From Thunnus maccoyii (lineage: Eukaryota; Chordata; Actinopteri; Scombriformes; Scombridae): a stretch of DNA of 64,000 bases. Positions within the stretch are counted from its first letter, which is position 1, and every line of letters starts with the position of its first letter. Below, piece by piece: positions 10,061 to 48,381 of this stretch. The notes below the pieces were generated by a model. It did no database searches. It was not told where the DNA came from and was given only the letters and a program-made list of their open reading frames with translations. The translations under genes and the position numbers were made by a program. The DNA is taken from assembly GCF_910596095.1 (NCBI RefSeq), contig NC_056545.1:27613067-27677066 (forward strand), written 5' to 3'.

Positions 10061-13000
10061 CTAAGACACCTCCTCTGTGTCAGGGTATGTCTTCATGTAG
10101 ACTTCAACCATTGTATCCAGATCACACTCAACATCATAGTTCATGTTCAAAAGAGCGAGACTTTTTGATTTGAACTTGTCAGGTGTGTTCTCCATGTACA
10201 TCCTGAAGCGCTTATATGCATCATCACAGCTATCCTCCAGAGCCAAGGTAGGCAGGATGCCGATCAGTCTCAGGACTGCAAGCATGTTTGGGAAGAACTT
10301 CACGTCGGCTAGCTGCAGCGTTTCATGGAGACTAGAAGGAAAAGTCTCACCTTTGCCCTTTTTGCTCCATTTGACCCACCAACAATGCAGCTCAGCGGAC
10401 AGGGTTCCAGCATTGGGGATGTCATCTTTAAACAATTGCACGTTTTCTTCATCGGGTTCGGTGGACTTGTGCTGCTCTATGACTGCAGGCACTAGTGACA
10501 GACATCTCAGAGCCTTCAGGTGGTTCTCACAGAAGAGTTCATTCACTTCTTTGATGACATGGTTCACAACAGGAACAGACAAGTGCTCCTTGTAGTAACT
10601 CTCTGGCTGAATGGTTCCCGGTTCTGACTGATGCTTTCTCAAGAATGATCGAGGAACTGTGACTGGGATGTCCAGCGCAGCAGCAAGGTTACTGGCTTCA
10701 TCGTTCCAGAACTCATGATACACGTCGATGTTGTCGGACACTTCCTTCAGGGAGTGCAATACAGCTTTTAAGCTGTGTGCAGCAAAATGCACGTCTGTTG
10801 CTTTCCCTTGCATGTTCTTCCCAAATGCCCTTGTAAGTGTCATAGTGTTTTTCAGGACAACAAGCGCCATGATGAACTCAAAATCAGCCAGCGCTTTTGA
10901 AATCTCTAAGGCGTCGTGTGTGACTTGATCGTTCCACCTCAAGTCCTCGTTGTCATGTACGCTGTCCACACAGAGTAGCAATGCCTCTAGGATTTCCACA
11001 GCCACCTCAAACGCGTCATGACGTCTGGTCCAGCTGGTACGACAGATCTCCTTCAGTTCATTGGCTTTCTCCTCTTTCTCTGGGTAGAAAATCGAAATTG
11101 CGTGCTCCAACTCCAAATACAGTGAAGGGGTCTGACTGAAGAATGACTCAATCTTCTTAAGGGTACACATGACAAGCTGAACCCCTGACAAAGCCATACC
11201 ACCGGCCAGCGACATGTTCAAGGTATGAGTGGATCTTAGCGTAAGCACTGCCATTGGATACCTCTCCATCAGTTTGGCGGCAAATGTTTTTATTTTACTA
11301 AAATGTGCCCCAGAGCAGGAGTGGGCTTGACCTCTACACTGTTCCATATTTAAGCCCCATTTGTCTGTCATTTCAGAGAGCAGTTTCTCTGCCAGGGCAT
11401 CTCCATCTCCTTCAAACGACAAGAATCCAACAAACCTCTCCCGCTGGCAGTTTGACTGGTCCACAAAACGGAGAAAGACTGGGAGGTACCATTCTCCTGA
11501 GATCTTCACCAAATCATCAGTAATTAATGAGAAAAAGACGTTTTGTTTAACTTCCTCCATCAGCTTTCCGCGGATGCATTTCTCGCACACCTCAATCAAT
11601 TGACTCAGCTGAGCTGATGAGCAGCACTCCTTATTTGCATCGTGCCTCGTCTTTAGGACTTCATCTCCACAACTCATGCGATATTCTAACAATGCCTGAA
11701 AGTTGCTTGACCCAAGGCTGTCCTGTTTATTATCACCAGGCCCTGTCGGAGGAATGCCTTGGTCTGCCAACAGTACAAGAACTTCAAATAATGACTTGAG
11801 ATACTCTTTGTATTTCTCTTCCTCCGGGATTGTCTGGACATCTTCTTTATTTGTCTCTGCTTGAGACTTTTTGATTTCTACAGGGAAAACAGAAATGATT
11901 GAAAGCCAAATCAATCATTAATCTTGTGACAAATGTGGGTGTGAGATTCATTTGCTGCAAAAACAAGTGATAAACGTGTGTGTGCTGATATTTCTACTTA
12001 CTTTTTCTCCCCTTACTCTCCTTTTCATCATCTTTGGTCTACAATATAAAAAGGAAAAATTAAAATTTGGATTACATAGAATGACAAATTATCCTTATCA
12101 TTTAAAGTAATTAAGATTTAATTCACCCACCGTCTCTTTACTGCGTTTGACCTGTCCATTTTGAGGTTGGCTTGGTGCATCAAAGATAGTTGGAATGGCA
12201 TCATCCTTCAAGACTGTACTCTGAAAACAAAGTCAAGTCAAAACTGTTTATTGTACAGAACATATGGTGACTGAATCAATAATTACTTCAGTTTAACTTG
12301 AATACTCAAATATTCATAAAAAGCATACTATACTGTACTTTATATAATGTTACGTGACATAGGCTAATTTATGAAGCTGGTGTAGCCCCTTTTCACATTT
12401 TAAACTGATTAAAACATAATTATGAATATTATATTCCATTTTTGCTAAGTCTGCTCCACTAGATGCCACTGAACTCTACACACTGCAACTTTAAAGACTG
12501 GAAATGACATGGGGGAATGTCACACTGTCCTCTGTGGTTTGGTTCTAAGACCATGTGCAGCTTGAAGAAATAACTTACACTATCAGTGGAAGATGTTACA
12601 AAATGTTTCCCACAAAGTCTGTAGTATCTGTACAACTGGTTTGGTGATTTGTCGATGAGATCTTGCCGCTGGCATTTTTCAACCCACTTCTTGCACCTGT
12701 AGGGAGATATCAAACCAACATGTGAAAAAAGTTGAAAGTCAACAGAAATTTGGGTTTGGAGGTTATATTATGGTTACAGTCAATTCAACAAACTCACAAA
12801 TGTTTTCTTTTTCTTGAGATGTTATGAATATGCAAGGTATGATATATAAGCCAGCCAGTGAAAACCGTCTACAATAAAAAAAGGGGTTAAAATTGTGAAT
12901 AATCCTTTTAAGGTTATGAACTTTTCAGGAATAAAATACCGGGGCCGCAACATCCGCTGCAAGAGTCAGAACTAACGTTAGACGTTTACTGTCTGCCACC

Positions 13001-15110: not shown

Positions 15111-17554
15111 ATGGACAACGTCGCGGTTTCAAGGAGAAAACACACCAATAAGAAAGTAGGTTAACGTTAATGAGCATCATATGATAACTTGTCATGTTGT
15201 GAAAAGTTACATTCAGAGAAGTCCAAATGTATCCTGCCTAATGGTTGTATTGTTTTAATTGCATTAGGGAAACAAGGAGAATGCTCAGCCTGCACATGGA
15301 AGCAAGTCCGTCATTAGAAGAGAGTTTTCTAAAACAACATCCGCTGCTCTCCTCCAACTGAAAAGAAACGAAAAAGAGGAGTCTCTGGGGAAAAGCGGTC
15401 CTCTTAAAGCTACAGCCAAACAGGCAGACACAAGGTCAACGTCTGGTGATGTTCTGAAAAAGATCAAGTCTGTGCAGAGAGATGGGAAAATAGCTGCTGC
15501 TGGTGATACCAAACAACGACAAACGCATAGCCAGGCCTTCCTCACTGAACAGGCTGTGAAACACAGAAAAATAGCTGCAGAAGCTCCAAAGCCACCAGCT
15601 GTTGTGCCATCATCGAAATCTGCTCCCGGCGCGTACAAAGGCAAGATTGTCCAGTCAAAGATTGGATCCATTTGGAAGTCAAGTGCCAAAGCGGGTGGAG
15701 CAGATCCAAAAGCACCCAAACCAGAGAGCCAAAGAGTTGGAAATTTCACAAAAAACAGGTCCAAATCTGTTGCTGACCTGCATGGGCGTGGCACACTAAA
15801 ACCTGCACCGACAAGGTCCAAGTCAGTGTCAGATGGACTTGCGCAGGTGTCCAAGCCCACCATCACCAGCCGTCCTCCTACTGCGTTCCGCTCCGCCCGC
15901 CCTCCTGCCAGAACCGTCCCAGCGACACTAACCAGTACCAGCTCCAGAAACACTACTGTGGCTCCCACCAAGAGAAGTGGGACTCAGAACTCAAAGCCAA
16001 ATATTTCAGTGACAGACAAGAAGGTCAACAAGCCTCCTGTCACAAGCACCCTCAGCCAATACAGATTTACTATGGAGACTGCCGAGGAAAGAAGGTAACA
16101 TTGTTTTTTACACACTTGATGTTTTTCTTGGTGTTACTGTACATCAGACATGTTCAAAAATGTTGTTGTGTTCCCCCTACAGAGCGAAACTGGCAGATTG
16201 GCTGGCCTCCAAGGGCAAGACTTTTAAGAGACCAGCCATGACAGCAGCAGCACCACCACCCAAAACCAAAGCACCGGTACCTGCAAAACCCAAAGCAGAT
16301 CTGAAACCCCAATCTCATGTTGAACCTCAGCCTGCTGCACAGTGTGACCCTGAACCTGAACCCAGTCTGGAAGCACAAAAGCCGGACTCTCCTGCTGCTC
16401 TCTGTGCAGATACCCAGGGAGCAGAACTAACAACACACAGCCAAACTCCAGTGATCATGAACACCACCCTGGACCTGCTGGAAATCTCAGATGTAGATCT
16501 GCCTGTTGACCCGCAGGACAGAGTTGATGATGTAAGGAAACTGTGTCTTGTGATGTTTTAGTTGGATTCAAAATATTACTGTTCACACTAACAAACTAAA
16601 ATCTCTTGTTTTCATTTTTTACAGATTGTTGTGAACCTGTGTGATGCATTGGATGCCATGGAGACGCCCTCTAAATGCACTGATGGTAAGTTCATCCTAT
16701 CTGCATACTATGATCTGTTTGGAGTAGAGTAAAATATTTTAAAATTAATATTCAATCTGCTGAGGTCACTGGCATTTCTGGTCTTAAAAAGAATAATAGT
16801 TGCAGTTGTTGTTGTTGCACTCTACACAGACGCTTCTATTTACATGAACACTTTTGTCATTTTTGTTTCCATAAGACGTTTCACAGGTGACAGATGAGTG
16901 CAGTAATGTTGAGATGGAGGACTGTAAGCTGAAGGATGAAGGTGAAAAGGTGGAGCTGAAGAATGAAATCCCTGAGGATGTCAGTGAGCAGCCGAAGGAC
17001 GAGCAAGTGAGGGATGGAGCAGCAGAAAGTGCTGAACAGAAGGTCAAGACAGATGATGTTGAGGAAGTAGAGAGTGATGATGATGAAGACGTGATGGAGA
17101 CCACGCCACAGATGGAGGATGCCTCAGTTGTAAAATACAGTGTTAAGACAACTCCATACTTGCAAAGGTGAGACCCTCTGCTTTCATTTGTGATACTAGC
17201 ATCCTCCTTTTCCTCATGCTTTCAACTGTTTCATTATGAAGCCATGAATTAAACTGTGGCAAATTATTTTCACTATCCCTCGTGTTTAGTGTAAAGAAGA
17301 CAATCGAAGACGAGGTCGGCACAAGCGGATCCAGGCGAAAGAGCAACATCAAAGATCTGAAGTTTCTGACTCCAGTGCGACGTTCCTGCCGCATCCAGCG
17401 CAAATCCTCCCGTCTGCCATCCATGCTGGTCGATCATGATCCCTGTGTGTCCTCACTGGCTGAACTGGTGAAGCTGGATGATGATCCCAACGCCTACATC
17501 TACAGAAAAAACCCTGCACTTCTGGAAGATCTGCCAGACCAGCCCAGGCAGTGA
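15111..17554 (+). CDS. Cytoskeleton-associated protein 2 family (CKAP2/CKAP2L)
   Basis: Six coding exons: 15111..15155, 15268..16094, 16183..16531, 16625..16685, 16876..17167 and 17290..17554; 1839 nt, 612 aa. The N-terminal half is basic, rich in Lys, Ser and Pro, and has a KEN box at residues 18-20 (GNKENAQ), a known APC/C degradation signal. From residue about 291 comes the family hallmark RAKLADWLASKGKTFKRP, then an acidic stretch (EEVESDDDEDVMETTP), and the conserved C-terminus VKYSVKTTPYLQ ... LKFLTPVRRSCRIQRKSSR ... YIYRKNPALLEDL. Family members bind microtubules, promote their nucleation and are needed for spindle assembly; levels peak in mitosis. The promoter has CCAAT and CHR motifs that fit such timing. 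The gene converges on stt3a. I cannot separate CKAP2 from CKAP2L by eye, so no symbol is given. Confidence 0.87.
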
Positions 17555-27801: not shown

Positions 27802-33625
<5,824 letters not shown>

Positions 33626-35927: not shown

Positions 35928-38900
35928 ATGGTTGTCTTGAGGATAAGAAATGCGCACAAAAGGAAATATGCACTTATCTGCCTGTGCATTGCTGGCTTCA
36001 TCATGTACAGATATCTCGGGTAAGTCAAGTTCTGACCAACTTGTTGTTGAATATGTTTCCATTAGAGCTACTTTGAGACTGTTTGTGCTTACTAATGTAC
36101 CTTATAACAGTGAAATACAATGACCCGTTAATATAGCAATAGCAATAGCAAGCTCTTGTTTCTGCAGGGATATGGTTATACTGTTAGAGACAAAATGTGA
36201 CTGTACTTAAAAATGTGATGAAAAAACCTAAAGGCATTGGGGTGTCACAGACACACTATAAAATACACTTTTATAGGAATATTACAGGCTATTGAGGCTC
36301 ATATGAAGTGTAACAGTGTCACTGGATGCCACCATACGTCACACTGTATTAATTTCCCTTTAAGAAAATGAACAAAGAGTGACTTTAACTACAACATAAT
36401 GGATGTTATATGAAGAAAAACATTTTAAATTAACATTTATTTTGTAAAAGTTGATACAAAGGGCTAATCCCCTCAGTTAAAGTCTATCTTGCCTCTAAAT
36501 TCTGTTATGTTCCTGCTCCTTTGTGCTCATGTTTTCCAACGCAAGATGTCTGCAAATTCCTATCAAGCATGTCATGTGGTCAATTCAGGCACAATAGCCT
36601 ATGTGCCATATTATGTGAGTGTGACACAAATAAACTACTACTCCTCTCCTAGCATGCCAGCAGGGGGACGGAGGATGAGCAGGAAAGTGGGCCTGAGCGC
36701 CAACTCGTCCCAGTTCACCCTGGAGGGAGAGCCTTTCCGCATCCTCGGGGGATCCATCCACTATTTCCGTGTGCCCAGGGCCTACTGGAGGGACCGCCTG
36801 ATGAAAATGAAGGCCTGTGGCATCAACACCCTGACTACGTAGGAAAACTACTATGGATCCATTTTGTATCTCAAGCCTGGTCACCAGTTGAATGTTAACA
36901 GAGAACATCCTGCACCCTTGCAGGTACGTGCCGTGGAGTCTGCACCAGCCAGAGAGAGGGGTGTTCAACTTCCACACACAGCTGGATTTAGTGTAAGGAG
37001 TAGTGTGAATCTTACTTGACATGAATACAAAACACTCACACTGATTTTTTGCTTGTACAAGTGCTCTCTCAACATTAAACCAAACTCAGTACAATGCCAC
37101 TTCAGAATGCAACCACCTTGCACCACCTCTCTAGCTGTTCTGACAGTATCACCTGCTCTAATGTGGGTTGGTAATACTCTTCCTTTCCTTCTCATCATCT
37201 AAGCCCCTGTGCTCAGGGGAGACGCTAGAGGCAGAGCGTCCCACCTGACAACAGTGGCATCTCCACAACAACAGCAACTTATCAAGCAATTAACGACACA
37301 GTGGTGATAAGTCAAGAGGGATGTAAGGCCTGAGCCTACCGCTGTTGTTGCCAAGCACATTTCACACTTCTCAAACAATGAGATATGGGTTCTCAGTCAG
37401 TCTAAACTTTGTGTTTCTGCAGATAGGAACTGCTTATTGATTGCTTTCTCTGTCTCTGTTTCAGAGCCTATATCAATCTTGCCGCTGAATTGGGATTGTG
37501 GGTGATTTTACGTCCAGGGCCTTACATTTCCTCTGAGCTGGATCTTGGAGGACTACCAAGGTAAGTCATGGTGGATTCTTAACTTTTTTGGGAAAAAATC
37601 TGATTTTGTGTGGTGAAACATAGATAACTGTACATAGAAATCCAGATTTTCTTGTGTAAGCTACATGTATGTATGAAAGCAAGATGTCAGTTTAAACTCA
37701 AAGCTTGTGCACTACTTTTTTCACTGAGCTCTGAATAGTTTATGTCCCTGAATAAATGCAATTAAGTTTTAAGTGAATTTAAAGCAGCAGCACAGAAGCC
37801 ATTTGATCTGAACCACAAAGTACCATTTTTTTGTTGAGTGCAATCAGGGTGAAAAAGTCATATCTTGCTGTAAGGGAAGACTCGCCCAGTGTGTGTGAAG
37901 CTTTGTCCAGTATGTTCGACTTACTGTGCCCCCGTTGTTCTTGCAGCTCTGTGGCTTTAGTCACAACTAAGCACCTTGTTTTCTGTTTCTCTGCAGCTGG
38001 CTCCTCCGTGATGGCAGCATGAGACTGAGGACGACTTACCCAAGCTTCACTCAGGCTGTCAACACGTATTTTGACAAACTTATACCAAAAGTGGTTCCGT
38101 TGCAGGTAGCTTTTTGTCACTCGGCCTGAAAACAAGTCTGCGTGTAGCTGCAGCTACATTTAACTTAATAAAATGTTTGCTTGTGTTTTTTAGTTTAAGA
38201 AAGGGGGTCCTATCATTGCAGTGCAGGTTGAAAATGAATATGGATCATTTGCAAAAGATGAAAGTTACATGCTTTTCATTAAAGAGGTAATGTGATAAGG
38301 TTCCTTCGTTAAACAATCCTACGTGGACAAATACACATATACAAAACTGATCAGTCTGATGATGCTAATATCTTTTTGTTTTATTTTGAAGGCTTTACAG
38401 TCCAGAGGGATCAGTGAGCTTTTGTTCACATCAGACAACCACAACACATTAAAGTCGGGGGGTGTGGATGGAGGTGCAGTATTTATTATTAATACACACA
38501 CATATACACACACACAGAGGTGCAGAGATTAGCTTGTGATCTCCTGTCTTGTAGCCATCAGATCAGTGAAGCTGCAGAAGCTAAATCACAGAGACATCCA
38601 GGATCTCAGTGCTATCCAGGTTTGTATCTCCCCCTTACAGTCTGAATCTGAGGGTGTCAAGTAGACACATGATTATATTGCCGGACAATTATCAGCGTAA
38701 GTTAATAGTTTGGATTGTTTTCTGTTTGTCAGCCCAACAGCCCCACCATGGTGATGGACTACTGGACTGGCTGGTATGATGTGTGGGGTAACCTCCACCA
38801 TGTGCTCCCCCCAGAGGGTAAGGACGGTTCTCCTTGTTAGTGTTGGCTTTATAGATGAAACTGACACCTCTCTATCAATGCTTCCAGCCAGTGACCTTTG

Positions 38901-41900
38901 TTGCATATCATACCCTCTTTTCTCTCCACTCATTCCCTTCCTCTACTCTATCAATTATCTAAAAAAGGTGAAAATTATCCCCAAAAATCTGGGATACATT
39001 ACAACCTATATGTGATGAAATGTCTGATATTTAGAATTGATGGTGTTTCCCCTGATCACAGCTATTTGAAAAGAGCCTAAATAAACTGCAGTTAAATTGT
39101 GTTTAGTTTGCATGTTTCATCCTTTCATGAATTGCTCACATTTCTTGATATCGTATATGCTGCCGAGCACATTTCATTTATTCTGAAGTTCTTCGCAAAG
39201 TTCTCCTCAGTCTAAATGTTGCTTGAGGCTTTTTGACAGACTCTTTGACAGACTTTTTTTCTTTCTTTTAATTTTTTTTTTTTTAGCAATTTTTGACACA
39301 AAATTTACAGATGTTGGTAAAATCCAATTCTGTGCCAAAACTGAATGAAGATCCAGAGTCACTTTTTGTCCTTTGTCATAGATTAAACCTCTGACATCTC
39401 TTCATCAAGTTTTTATTTTTAGCTTACCCAGTAGCCATATTTAACCTTAAGCCACTCTGAATTGCTGTAAACAAATGCTTTCAATCTCACGCTGTAGTTT
39501 GTTTTAGTTATATTTTCCTACCTCTTTGCTTTTTTGCATGAGAAACGCCAGCTTCACACCAACAATGTAAATTTACATGTAAATGTTAAACCCACTTTTG
39601 TAGCTCCTGATGAGAAGTCAGCAGAGGATTTAAAATATTTCAATGACCTGACTTAAAAACTGCATTAATAAGTTATTTGTAAGTTTTTTTTTCCACTGCA
39701 GGGATTCTAACACTTTGACACTATGTTTCATAGGAGTCACTTTGTTCATTGTCAACATGTTTAATTTCTTGTCAGATATGGTGTCCACTGTGAGAGAAAT
39801 GCTGAGGAGAGGCATGTCTGTCAACCTCTACATGTTCCATGGAGGCTCAAGTTTTGGCTTCCTGAGCGGAGCTCTCACTGATCCTTCCTACAAAGCATTA
39901 GTCCCCAGCTATGGTTGGTTCCTCTGTGTCATGTGCATTGTCAAAAACAAACTAGTGGTGTCTTTGATGCAAATTTACAAAGATTTTATTATAATGATGA
40001 AGCACTCTTCCTGAATTGGAGAGGTTTCTTGCAGTCTACAGAACATTACCCTAAACAACCAGCAGATGGCAGCACATGATAGTTAATCTATGATGTTTGG
40101 CAGATTATGATGCTCCCTTGTCTGAAGCTGGGGAGTACACTCAAAAGTACCATCTCCTTAGGGATCTACTTTCTCGATTCAACAGTAAGTCAAACGATAC
40201 ATATAGATAACAATGAAGTATATGTGAGCATATGCTGTGACTGACTTCTTTGCCTGATCTTTCTGTGCAGGAGGGGAGAGTTTCCTGGACATGCCAGCCC
40301 TGCGTTACAGGGAGGCTTATGAACCAGCTATCATGTACCAGCACCTGTCCTTATGGGACGCTTTGAGCTTCACTGAGGGAGTATGTTTTTAGATGTAAGA
40401 TTGTCTGCATACATGTGATGTATGGATTGATGCTTTCTGTCAAGGAGGTCAATTTAATTATTTCAGTTTTCTCTATAGCCATTTAAATCATCTAAGCCAG
40501 TAAACATGGAGAACCTACCTGTTAACAACAAGAATGGCCAGTCCTATGGATACACACTGTATGAGACCACTATCACCAGTGGAGGCTTATTGAAGTCTGG
40601 AGACAATGTGCGAGACCGTGCCCTTGTGAGTCATCACTGTACATGAAGGCATGATCTCACTCTTTCTGACCTTATGCATTAGGGTGGGTGTGGATGCTTG
40701 ATTGCGTAATGTACAAATAATTTCATACATTATCTTTTTTGTAGTTGCTGAAACTAAACCAAAAGTTTAACATTAGTTTGACATTTTGTGAAATATGCTT
40801 ATTTGCTTTCATGCTGAGAGTTAGATGAGAAGATTCATACCACTCTTTTCTCTGTTAAATATGAATATGAATAGCTTAGCTTAGCATAACAACTGGATGC
40901 AGGGGGTTAACAGCTAGCCTGGCTCTGTCCAAATGGTAAAAATCTGCCTATCAGCTCTTCTGAAGCTCATTAATTAATATGTTGTATCTTCTTTGTTATT
41001 CCAAGCAAAAATCCAAGTATAGAAATGACAAGTTGTGGTTTTATGGGGTGTTGCAAGTGAGAGAATTTCTTGGCCAGGTGCAGTGACTTCCTAAAGTCTT
41101 CTTGTCAGCGCCAGACTTCAGAGGAGACTTCAGATATGAGATATAATACATTAATTAATGAGCATTAGATGTGCTGGTAAACTGAAAACACAGTACTGCT
41201 GTGGTGCTGCATCATATGACGTATCAAGTGCTGCCCCTAGCACATAGGAAGCTGAAGGGCGTTGATATAGTAGTTACCTGGATGTTACTCCAGTACTATG
41301 AGTACATTGCGGGACAATAAAATGCCATGGGTGAGTTGCCTATTGTAGTTTTCTATTTTTGATTAATAATTTGAAAAATAATAATCTGAGCAGTGAGATT
41401 ATGTCTTGAAAGCAGCAGATTAACCAACAATTAATTCATTTTTGCCTTGTAGATACAGACACAAGTGACATCGTTAAAACTACTATAAAAGAAAACAATA
41501 AACTAGTAAACAACGTCTTTAGTTGGGCCAACATTGTATTGAAGTACAAAACAGCTTTTTCTCTGAAAAAAAAGTGTTTTTTCAGGTCTGGCAAAGCTGG
41601 AAATAGGACAGTGGCGTGAAGTGTCACAGGGTGGCTCGTCAAACTATCCCCTTTATTTCAGTCATTGCTGTCAGTGGTCAGTCCATGTTGCTGTTACACA
41701 GTTCAGGAAATACAGCATATAGTGGATGTGAAAAAATGATGACTTAGTTAGCAAAATTAAATCTTTGAGATATTTCATTAAAATAAATGTGTATGTGTTA
41801 TGTACAATGATATAATTTATTTGTCAGCAATTCTTTTCCTTCCTAGGTGTTTGTAGACAGAAGCTACATTGGCCTTTTCAAGCGCCAGAGCCTGGAGCTG

Positions 41901-43250
41901 GCAGTTCCTGATGGTAAGGTATGGCATCAAGTTGGACACTGAAAGGAAATGTCCAATAAACATCATTTGCATTTTTCAGTGCTATGTTGAGGTGTTGCCT
42001 CAAATTTCCAAAAGCATAAAAAGTGATAACCCTACAGGAACGGCGAACCCTAAGTTTATTGGTAGAGAACTGTGGACGAGTTCACCAGGGAAGAGACCTT
42101 GACAAACAACATAAAGGTGATCGACAGACAATACGCAGTTCATTGTTATTCTTGCTATTAAATCACTCAAGCACTCAGTGGATTGTGTACAAGCCAATTT
42201 TGATCTGTGTTATTGCAGGCCTCGTGGGAGACATTTTATTAAACAATATTCCCCTGCAGGATTTTACAATATTCAGCCTGGATATGAAACCCAGCTTTAT
42301 TGATAGGTTTGTATGCTTTATTGAATATAAAGCACTGAATATCACTTTAATATTTCTGTAATAGCGTTTTCTTGTTTCAGTCTTTATCAGGCACCTTGGA
42401 AAACTCTCCCTGAAACTCCCAGCTTCCCAGGTTTTTTCATGGGGAGGCTGTTTGCATACGGGTATCCGAGTGACACATTTGTGAAGCTGCCAGTGAGTTT
42501 AAATGAAACGATTGATTTCTACACCATGTGCATGTTTCTGCATGTGTGTTTGTACGTGAACACATTTAATTGTCCCTGGGTCCATAGGGTTGGGAGAAAG
42601 GTGTTGTGTTTGTCAATGGGCTGAATCTGGGCCGCTACTGGTCCATTGGCCCCCAGCAGACTCTCTACCTACCTGGTCCCTTTCTCAACAGTGGAATCAA
42701 CCAGGTGCACAAACCAGCACTTTTTAAAGGAATAGTTTGACATTTAAGGGAATAGCTAGCTTGGCCCCCCTCTGATGGTAACAAAGCCCACCAACCAGCA
42801 CCAATAGAGCTCACTACTTAACACGTTTTATCTCATTTGTTTCATCCATGAACAACAACTTATCTTTTTTTACACTGTCCTTTTTTAAGTACGGATTGAG
42901 TCTTTATGCTACACTAAGCTAACTGGCTGCTGACTGTAGCTTCATATTTAACAGGCATGAAAGTTTTACCAACTTCTCAGTCAGAAAGCAAATGAGCATG
43001 ATAGAATGTCAAACTATTCCTTTAAAACGTTTTTTCCCCTTGCATTACAATGCAAAAGATTAATTTTACATTTACTACATGTGAAAACACAATCAGATTT
43101 TACTCTAAGAACTCTAACTCTCTCTTCTTTGTCTCTCACATGTTTTCCGTAAAAATAAATAAGGTGATTGTGTTTGAAGAGCAAGAGGCTGACTACAAGG
43201 TCCAATTTGAGGACATGCCTGATCTCGGCATGGCAGCAGACATCCAGTGA
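35928..43250 (+). CDS. Beta-galactosidase-1-like protein (GLB1L2/GLB1L3 type, GH35)
   Basis: Nineteen exons: 35928..36019, 36653..36838, 36924..36992, 37465..37560, 37997..38105, 38194..38286, 38392..38473, 38555..38619, 38733..38817, 39776..39913, 40104..40184, 40271..40380, 40479..40625, 41847..41918, 42038..42116, 42219..42306, 42381..42492, 42588..42704 and 43164..43250; 1908 nt, 635 aa (human GLB1L2 is 636). Residues 15-29 are a hydrophobic signal-anchor. The TIM-barrel begins with [20 protein letters not shown]; the acid/base glutamate is Glu199 (QVENEYGS). The nucleophile motif reads VMDYWTGW, with Asp273 where GH35 enzymes have Glu, and the motif normally YMFHGGTNFGF reads [11 protein letters not shown]. 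The C-terminal beta domains end with [18 protein letters not shown] and SGINQVIVFEEQ. Hydrolysis of beta-galactosides would be the family reaction, but the altered nucleophile suggests weak or no activity. Exon 2 was started at the CTCCTCTCCTAG acceptor because only that site keeps phase. The gene lies head-to-head with ei24. Confidence 0.93.
40770..41115. repeat. MITE fragment (AGTTTGACATT family) in glb1l-like intron 13
   Basis: Starts with AGTTTGACATTTTGTGAAAT and GAGTTAGATGAGAAGATTC, a sequence I recognise as one end of a teleost inverted-repeat element. The opposite end is missing, so about the left 60 percent is present. Confidence 0.6.
42722..43027. repeat. MITE (AGTTTGACATT family), both ends present
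   Basis: Terminal inverted repeats TTTTAAAGGAATAGTTTGAC at the left and its complement at the right enclose about 306 bp, including the family motif CTAAGCTAACTGGCTGCTG. It occupies most of the last intron of the glb1l-like gene and its right end lies about 140 bp before the last exon. Confidence 0.7.
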
Positions 43251-46499: not shown

Positions 46500-48381
46500 T
46501 CATATCTCCACATTAGAGTCTGTAAATCCTTTCTTGCCCTCATTTACCAGCACAGGCTTTTCCGTCCGTGTGTGCCATACTAATACCTGTGGAAAAGGAA
46601 GAAAGAAGAAAGGAAAGTAGAAATACAGTCAGTATGATGAAACACTAATACATACCTTTTGGCTGTGCAATAGTAATAAACCACATCGTACCCTCAACAC
46701 AGTGTTCAGAGGGAGAACCGTTTTAAATGAGCTGTAAGCATAAAGGGTTGGCTGTAAGCTGACAGTTTACTGACTTTAAGAACAAACTGTTATGACAGCC
46801 AAGGATCTCAAGATACATGCTCTTACACCAGCAGAATTTACAGATGCAGCTTGTTTTATTGCCAATTCACAGGGGTTGCACAGCATTTCAAACATTTTCT
46901 CACCTTAGTGCAGTTAGCAGCTTTAGGCTCCAGGTCGCTCAGGGTGACAAGCTCCTTTAATAAACTGCTCTCCTGATAACCTCCTTTCACCCCACGTAAC
47001 TTGAAATAAGCCTGAGGTTTAGACAGAATGAGGCGCAGGTTCACTGCAAAGCCAGCCATGTCGATAGCAAAAGGCCGATGTGGGTCGAATACCGTTTTCC
47101 AGCCGTACACTTTGCCCAAGGTGTTTACTTTAGGGGACTCGTACCGAAGGCCGCCCACAAAGGCCACAGGCCACACTGATACCTTTTTGGTGGATCGCAT
47201 CTGGTAGTTGGAAACAGAGACAGACACACTCACTCATGAGAGTCATTTTGAATTCCATAAATCCCAAAATGTAGCTAAAAACACACAACACAAGTAGGAA
47301 GAGTGTGAAAGGTTTAGGAGGAGGAGACATTGCATCATTTATGTTTTTGCTTTGAAATATATTTCCTCACCTCCTCAAACAGCTCCAGACTGTACGTGTT
47401 GTCATCATCTGCAAAGTAGACAATCCCCGGCTGGCTGTTGTTTACACTGAAGGTCTCCCGCAGCCACCGCAGGGCCAGGTTCCTCTGTATAGTGCCCCGT
47501 GGTATACGGGGGTCCCTTGTGTCCCCGCGTATCTTGTAGTTCCTGGGTGTCTCCACATTGAGGTGGGTGTAGTTGAGTCCCGTCTCCTGGAGGAGATGGC
47601 TGACCAGAGGGGTCCTCCTCTGGGAGTCCTCCACCAGGATCCAGTGCAGGTTGGGCACATGGAGCAAAGTGTTCGCCAGACGTGTCAGCTCTGCCTTCTG
47701 CACTGGCCGGCTGTAGGTGGGAGTGATGACATGGATGGTGGACAGGATGTCGGACCAGGGTGGAGGCCGGCTGTAGACATACTCTGTGCGCACCACCTCC
47801 ACGATGTCCCGGTTCTGCAGTGAGCAGGACTCCTTGAAAGCGAAAGTGTTCCTGGAGCGACCATCACGTCTGTCATCTAGGCAGGAGGGGAAATGATTAC
47901 AATGAGCCTCTGTGTCCTACATTCAAAGATGGATGGAACCTTCATTCTACTACATTAAGCTGCTGTATATTCAGATCCAGCTTGCTAGCTTGTTCTCCTT
48001 AATGAAACAATATGGACTGGATTTAATCTGTAGAGAGGTTGATGCTTAACTGTTATCTTGTAAGTTAGCAGACATAATCTTCTGTGCATTACACTCTGGC
48101 TTCATGGCATTTTATCAACATGTGACCTTTACTCTGAGATTAGAACATACTCACTCACATGCATGCTGTAAGTCACACAAACACCTTTCTGGTACACTGC
48201 TGTGATGAATATTAATGGCAAAAATGTCCACTATCACAAACCATCAACAGACTGTTAAGTACTTTTTACCCTTTCGTGTAGCAAGCAGTGGAGTGATGGT
48301 GCTTTGGTGCCAAACAGTGATGAGCAGTGTCCAAGGCAACACAATCAACACAATGGCGACGATGTCTCGTCTCTTCGGCAT
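46500..48381 (-). CDS. b3gat1: Beta-1,3-glucuronyltransferase 1 (GlcAT-P)
   Basis: Four coding exons: 48270..48381, 47371..47876, 46904..47200 and 46500..46586; 1002 nt, 333 aa (human 334). It transfers glucuronic acid from UDP-GlcA to terminal N-acetyllactosamine of glycoproteins in the Golgi, the key step in making the HNK-1 carbohydrate on neural adhesion molecules. Residues 1-25 are a short cytosolic tail and type II signal anchor (RRDIVAIVLIVLPWTLLITV), nearly identical to mammals. The GT43 catalytic domain starts at about residue 84 (TIHVITPTYSRPVQKAELTR); the metal-binding DDD is at 193-195 (YFADDDNTY), and the catalytic base is the Glu of GGYQESSLL at about 282. Sequon NCT is at 301. 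The stem is divergent, as usual. B3GAT2 is excluded by the N-terminus and the VLVWHTRTEKPVLVNEGKKGFTD tail. An acceptor at 48412 shows that the 5' UTR continues in an upstream exon. Confidence 0.96.

Follow-up and report, generated by a model that had tools for sequence, protein, structure and literature searches.

A candidate GH35 pseudoglycosidase with aspartate at the nucleophile position in Thunnus maccoyii

A GH35 gene of the GLB1L2/GLB1L3 type was found in the window, the whole 64-kb stretch of Thunnus maccoyii DNA that was analysed, and its product carries aspartate (Asp273) at the position of the GH35 glutamate nucleophile. Glu stands at this position in all 66 bacterial relatives compared and in both paralogues on contig C6; judged from its sequence, the protein therefore belongs to GH35 by descent and domains but departs from the canonical enzyme of the family. 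It has probably ceased to cut sugars in the normal way. The best explanation, which we hold at a probability of about 0.55, is that the gene is a duplicate whose product would have lost hydrolysis, or most of it, and retained galactoside binding, that is, a predicted pseudoglycosidase.

The gene is intact. Its spliced model has 19 coding exons for 635 aa, every intron is GT-AG, and neither an internal stop nor a frameshift occurs across the exons. The Pfam domain Glyco_hydro_35 (PF01301) was matched at 355.5 bits against a cut-off of 27, and the C-terminal all-beta domain PF21317 (73.9 bits) and galactose-binding domain PF21467 (73.7 bits) also scored above their cut-offs. The GH35 acid/base signature of 13 protein letters, as quoted in an excerpt of PMC3103743, is present as a 15-letter stretch with Glu199. 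The length, the 19 intact exons and the kept acid/base Glu199 reported in the preliminary description were borne out by the spliced model, in which VENEYG begins at residue 196, and the interval singled out there, 38733..39913, is bounded exactly by exons 9 and 10 (Table 1). The hydrophobic stretch of exon 1 reaches a Kyte-Doolittle maximum of 1.79 over 17 residues from residue 16. It is likely a type II membrane anchor or an uncleaved signal, from which we infer the topology. The Rfam scan of the 64-kb window matched no family.

Table 1. Positions of the GH35 gene, its active-site exons and the neighbouring GT43 exon in the window
Feature	Positions	Strand	Basis or remark
GH35 (GLB1L2/GLB1L3-type) gene	35928..43250	+	Spliced model; Pfam PF01301, PF21317, PF21467 above cut-off
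Exon 1: basic N-terminus, then hydrophobic stretch	35928..36019	+	Gene model; Kyte-Doolittle
Exon 3: 12-residue motif; Ser98 = GLB1 Asn87, Gln101 = GLB1 Glu90	36924..36992	+	
Exon 4: 12-residue motif; Ser138, Ser139 and Leu141 replace Cys127, Ala128 and Trp130; Glu140 = Glu129 kept	37465..37560	+	
Exon 6: VENEYG with acid/base Glu199 and Asn198, both kept	38194..38286	+	
Exon 9: nucleophile motif VMDYWTGW (residues 271-278)	38733..38817	+	
Codon GAC = Asp273, GH35 nucleophile position (GLB1 Glu268)	38757..38759	+	
Exon 10: 11-residue motif (from residue 311) and VPSY; Tyr311 kept	39776..39913	+	
Exon 11: carries on a 12-residue motif, kept	40104..40184	+	
Exons 17-19: C-terminal galactose-binding-like domain (77 bits)	42381..43250	+	Pfam PF21467
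GT43 (B3GAT1-like) exon	47335..47916	-	PF03360; convergent with the GH35 gene, 4.1 kb downstream

The Asp that had been proposed at the nucleophile position was recovered: Asp273 lies opposite Glu268 of human GLB1. The window protein matched 27 PDB sequences in phmmer, and in all three alignments printed (4mad, 8fa5 and human GLB1 3wez) Asp273 faces Glu with no gap near. Glu also stands here in all four other GH35 genes found in the Thunnus maccoyii genome and, we presume, in mammalian GLB1L2/3. The search word containing the nucleophile was present in 0 of the 66 bacterial loci. A sequencing or assembly error at this codon (GAC for GAA or GAG) would need one base, the distance between Asp and Glu codons. 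It is nevertheless highly improbable, for independent departures occur in exons 3, 4, 9 and 10 of an otherwise clean gene. Because several codons in these four exons depart, a single base-call error is unlikely as the full explanation, and assembly error was rejected as the sole cause.

Replacement of Glu by Asp shortens the side chain and usually cuts the activity of retaining glycosidases strongly. The match found in a literature search on nucleophile Glu to Asp changes concerned the acid/base residue and not the nucleophile; the size of the effect expected here is therefore presumed. Among the matches listed for GLB1L2/3, GLB1L in fish, GH35 pseudoenzymes and Glu to Asp changes, the substitution was absent from the titles and abstract openings. 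To look for a bacterial GH35 that shares the Asp, 395 genomes from a single phylum were searched for DNA encoding D[FY]WxGW[FY][DE], a small survey that adds little. The single match was rejected, lying inside a non-GH35 frame of 504 aa which we take to be an outer-membrane efflux-type protein. The matching Glu pattern occurred in 6 of the 395 genomes, and the match in G001, the one of the six looked at, lies within a GH35 match.

The change in the active site reaches beyond the preliminary account, because several additional pocket residues are altered. Human GLB1 (PDB 3THC, 3WEZ) aligns over residues 47-614 of the window protein, and besides Glu268>Asp the near-invariant pocket residues differ by Asn87>Ser, Cys127>Ser, Ala128>Ser, Trp130>Leu, Thr312>Ser and Thr329>Pro (GLB1 numbering). 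Both C6 paralogues, c6m and c6p, retain the equivalents of Glu268, Asn87, Cys127, Ala128, Trp130 and Thr329. Ser317, Ser318 and Pro336 in exon 10 correspond to Thr312, Asn313 and Thr329. The reported change of YMFHGGTNFGF is present (GGTNF>GGSSF), but it is weaker evidence than had been implied, because the second Ser also occurs in c6p and Ser is found at each position in 2 of the 66 bacterial rows. Mammalian GLB1L2/3 presumably read ICSEM where the window gene reads ISSEL; therefore, Ala128>Ser and the loss of Trp130 may be features of the clade rather than specific to this gene. The Ser replacing Cys127 could still hydrogen-bond O4.

The departures from conserved columns are concentrated in the window protein. 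At the 52 fully invariant columns, with the search-word stretch excluded, it differs at 4 and c6m and c6p at none (4/52 versus a pooled 0/104; Fisher p = 0.011). At the 78 columns conserved in at least 95%, departures unique to one fish protein number 8 in the window protein, 1 in c6m and 0 in c6p (one-sided binomial p = 0.016 against end-branch lengths). The search word MVTSYDYD is held by 61 of the 66 bacterial loci and fixes the Thr329 column; therefore, Thr329>Pro was dropped from the final invariant-column count. With this stretch included, the comparison is 5/56 versus 0/56 in a single paralogue (Fisher p = 0.057). Thr is also found at the 329 position in the five bacterial loci found otherwise, in the GH35 genes on C2 and C11 and in the three printed PDB alignments.

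In contrast to these neighbours, the residues that contact the sugar are kept. Tyr83, Glu129, Asn187, Glu188 and Tyr306, reported as contacts in GLB1, are retained, likewise Trp273, Tyr331 and Tyr333, giving eight known or likely galactose contacts. Some residual activity is possible, because Asp still supplies a carboxylate and the acid/base Glu remains in place. The protein might even still be an enzyme, with Asp273 acting as nucleophile on a repositioned sugar; hydrolysis would then be slow, with more transglycosylation or a changed substrate, and the pocket changes would fit the shorter side chain. The kept Glu199, the adjacent Asn198, Trp278 and the aromatic platform agree with this, as does the charge preserved by Asp273, and several pocket changes occurring together could be compensation. 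An aligned nucleophile can also mislead in GH35 relatives, since in archaeal GlmA the real one lies elsewhere, according to an excerpt of PMC6566704. However, Asp occurs here in 0 of 66 bacterial relatives, 0 of the 4 other GH35 genes of the genome and 0 of the 3 printed PDB alignments. The acidic residues gained in the barrel of the window protein only (259, 328, 359 and 368) are at least 7 residues, counted along the sequence, from any catalytic or altered position. Continued catalysis of this kind is therefore considered rather unlikely.

Five GH35 genes, including the window gene, were found in the Thunnus maccoyii genome. The two on C6 form an inverted pair, 65% (c6m) and 64% (c6p) identical to the window protein in amino acids. 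The exons recovered for them match those of the window gene in order and phase, with exon 1 of c6p not among them. A b3gat1-like match (C6:10138232-10138675), 90% identical to the GT43 exon of the window, lies near this pair and supports duplication of the block; c6m shows the same convergent layout. Because the gene order around b3gat1 is mirrored, the window gene is apparently the counterpart of the canonical C6 pair in a duplicated chromosome block. The window gene resembles GLB1L2/GLB1L3 in its GH35 domains and its convergent B3GAT1-like neighbour, which we take to be the human order at 11q25. It differs in the Asp nucleophile and the altered pocket.

The preliminary description had suggested dN/dS as a check, and omega on the window branch was 0.111, a value of purifying selection on a branch that also spans time before the Asp change and is near saturation (t ~4.6); fixing omega at 1 costs 53 log units. 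The end branch of the window protein is the longest of the three (0.37 versus 0.24 and 0.15). General relaxation was rejected as the sole cause, as barrel omega is about equal (0.114 versus 0.122 in the paralogues, both averages over older history) and Tajima relative-rate tests on all sites were not significant (window-only to other-only 26:16 and 27:15; chi-square 2.4 and 3.4). Early pseudogenisation, in which function is being lost and active-site changes accumulate first, would agree with the long end branch and the excess of conserved-site departures over the paralogues. It is improbable given the intact frame and splice sites and the low omega values, averaged as they are over older history, and sugar contacts retained while their neighbours change are unlike random decay. 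The proposal of a non-catalytic or altered function rather than decay was upheld in part, as to intact structure, purifying selection over the history of the gene and loss of the canonical nucleophile; the function itself is a reasonable prediction.

As expected of a pseudoglycosidase, the protein combines an intact, constrained fold with a missing catalytic residue, although Glu to Asp is a conservative replacement and the constraint spans time before it. The carboxylate of Asp273, one carbon shorter, would attack the anomeric carbon inefficiently, and the altered pocket would add to this defect, so that ordinary beta-galactosidase turnover would be very low or absent. The N-terminal hydrophobic segment probably anchors the protein so that it faces the lumen or the cell exterior, where, by analogy with other pseudoglycosidases, its ligand would be a terminal beta-galactoside or a protein partner. 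Klotho belongs to GH1. The klothos and YKL-39 (GH18) have a glycosidase fold without catalysis and bind glycans or sugar-mimicking motifs, as described in an excerpt of PMC7828330. The window protein shares the fold and, as predicted from sequence, the lost catalysis; it differs in GH family, in the charge kept by Asp and in that its binding is predicted.

The Asp273 change is known here from one fish species and might be recent and restricted to Thunnus maccoyii. That the b3gat1-GLB1L block was duplicated, probably in the teleost whole-genome duplication, and one copy then became a fixed fish GH35 pseudoenzyme, a membrane-anchored galactoside-binding lectin, is a tentative proposal, possible rather than probable. 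We know of no earlier case of a GH35 pseudoenzyme, and a dedicated literature search found no paper on one. A long-standing, ordinary feature of one fish GLB1L2/GLB1L3 orthologue group, present in databases and unremarked, is very improbable, even though four or five invariant-column departures suggest a long history and GLB1L2/3 catalysis in fish was undiscussed among the literature matches listed. This reading is about how old and how new to science the change is more than about its mechanism, and it is compatible with the other readings.

A mouse triple deletion including GLB1L2 and GLB1L3 left male fecundity normal, as stated in an excerpt of PMC6688925. The Asp273 gene is relevant to the question of what GLB1L2/GLB1L3 do, which is poorly understood. 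If Asp273 holds across fish, GH35 would join the glycosidase families with pseudoenzymes. A natural Glu to Asp nucleophile variant would then stand beside canonical paralogues in one genome, and therefore loss of hydrolysis could be compared directly with retention of sugar binding.

The preliminary description placed an aspartate at the catalytic nucleophile position of this GH35 protein, in the motif VMDYWTGW, and this was borne out. In the phmmer alignments to the three sequences printed of 27 matched PDB sequences, Asp273 stands opposite the glutamate of human GLB1 (3wez), 4mad and 8fa5, and there is no gap near it. The chain numbering of 3wez is the literature numbering plus one, and the positions given here were obtained by counting residues in the alignment. 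The GLB1 nucleophile is named as Glu268 in PMC7504770 and PMC6566704. The acid/base residue, Glu188 of GLB1, corresponds to Glu199. The nucleophile column holds Glu in 66/66 bacterial relatives. It is free of search-word bias because PKMVMEYW was found in none of the bacterial loci. The interval of the preliminary description, 38733..39913, runs exactly from exon 9 through exon 10.

The pocket was compared among the window protein, two paralogues on contig C6 of the same genome, c6m (636 aa) and c6p (a 612-aa model lacking exon 1, which was not found), and the 66 bacterial relatives (n = 65 where one row is gapped). Present in the window protein and in neither paralogue are Ser98 (GLB1 Asn87; Asn in 65/65 bacteria), Ser138 (Cys127; Cys in 65/65), Ser139 (Ala128; Ala in 64/65), Leu141 (Trp130; Trp in 65/65), Asp273 (Glu268), Ser317 (Thr312; Thr in 64/66) and Pro336 (Thr329; Thr in 66/66). 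Gln101 is also present in 8/65 bacteria, and Ser318 is also present in c6p. Mammalian GLB1L2/3 presumably read ICSEM opposite residues 137–141, and therefore the Ser139 and Leu141 changes may partly be features of the GLB1L2/3 clade. Judged from the alignments, the deviation is broader than first described, as further putative pocket residues are altered besides the nucleophile. In GLB1, Cys127 touches the axial galactose O4 through its thiol, and Ala128 touches O3 through its main chain (PMC6566704, the latter in section 4.1). T329A is listed, together with R442Q, among alleles in fibroblasts from GM1-gangliosidosis (PMC6981736).

Conserved columns were counted if both C6 paralogues and 60 or more of the 66 bacterial sequences held a letter there; the bacterial sample is redundant and reduces to 23 representatives at 70% identity. 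At 56 invariant columns, the window protein departs five times and each C6 paralogue never. The search word MVTSYDYD is present in 61/66 bacterial loci, so that this stretch is invariant by construction. With residues 334–341 left out, 52 invariant columns remain and the departures are 4, 0 (c6p) and 0 (c6m). At 95% conservation (78 columns) they are 11, 3 and 3, and those unique to one fish protein are 8 in the window protein, 1 in c6m and 0 in c6p. With end-branch lengths of 0.37, 0.24 and 0.15 taken into account, the one-sided p for at least eight of nine unique departures is 0.016.

In Pfam, the window protein matches Glyco_hydro_35 and two beta-galactosidase domains, the first all-beta one and the galactose-binding one. 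Its basic N-terminus is followed by a hydrophobic stretch, suggestive of a type II anchor. In the 782 Mb genome (54 contigs), GH35 matches occur at no fewer than four places, counts being lower bounds: the window contig C13, C6 (an inverted pair of genes), C2 and C11. On the last two, the genes show the canonical states EFYTGW, CAEW, GGTNF and TSYDYD. The modelled C-terminus of c6p is longer than that of c6m.

Features of the window and of contig C6
Feature	Position	Strand	Remarks
GH35 gene	window 35928-43250	+	19 exons, 635 aa, introns all GT-AG, spliced by hand
GT43 (B3GAT1-like) exon	window 47335-47916	-	convergent with GH35 gene
Match to GT43 exon	C6:10138232-10138675	+	90%
Inverted GH35 pair (L009-L011, L016)	C6 ~10152915-10185060		nucleophile Glu, 74% identical
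617-aa stop-to-stop frame	window 10061-11914	-	uninterrupted; DUF4371, 42.8 bits; as in hAT-like transposon proteins
276-aa open frame	window 15268-16098	+	Lys/Ser/Pro-rich; no Pfam match; presumably resembles microtubule-associated protein exon
Several short exon-like frames	window 28654-32400	-	no Pfam match on two short pieces tried; presumably resemble EI24 exons

The C6 match to the GT43 exon and the 3' end of c6m (minus strand) are some 14 kb apart, and weaker matches are on C14 and C22. By their strands c6m and the B3GAT1-like gene converge on C6, as the GH35 gene and its neighbour do in the window. Because C6 repeats this convergent layout, the two regions look like duplicated blocks. 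From one shared neighbour, we infer that the duplication would date to the teleost genome duplication. A tree built from the three fish proteins plus 12 of the 66 bacterial sequences did not settle the branching order of the window protein, c6p and c6m.

Selection was assessed with a codon model (own script; three fish genes, 602 codons), in which branch lengths are near saturation. Omega was 0.111 on the window branch vs 0.165 on the other two (barrel, 0.114 vs 0.122; C-terminal part, 0.120 vs 0.224), and fixing the former at 1 lowered lnL from –5291.5 to –5344.6. A separate window-branch omega gave no significant gain over a single one (–5291.5 vs –5293.1). That branch reaches back beyond the replacement of Glu by Asp and may include some of the C6 stem. 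What the estimate shows is thus constraint on the gene as a whole, over a branch that began before the change. Of the sites identical between c6p and c6m, 46/243 in the barrel and 45/189 in the C-terminal part have another residue in the window protein. Tajima tests with three bacterial outgroups (L023, L024 and L026) were not significant.

Besides Glu199, the window protein keeps Tyr94 (Tyr83), Glu140 (Glu129), Asn198 (Asn187), Trp278 (Trp273), Tyr311 (Tyr306), Tyr338 (Tyr331) and Tyr340 (Tyr333). Trp273, Tyr331 and Tyr333 are likely galactose contacts of GLB1. Tyr83, Glu129, Asn187, Glu188 and Tyr306 are ligand contacts (PMC7504770, PMC6566704), and W273 and Y333 are marked as catalytic-site variants (PMC7012745). 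Kept contacts, changed neighbours and a changed nucleophile would be more expected of a binding protein than of a gene in random decay. The main rival is a slow or altered enzyme. A literature search, with most subscription papers outside its coverage, found no GH35 pseudoenzyme; pseudoglycosidases are known in other families (PMC7828330). Most likely, the sequence is that of a GH35 paralogue that is dead or crippled as a catalyst and would have retained binding.
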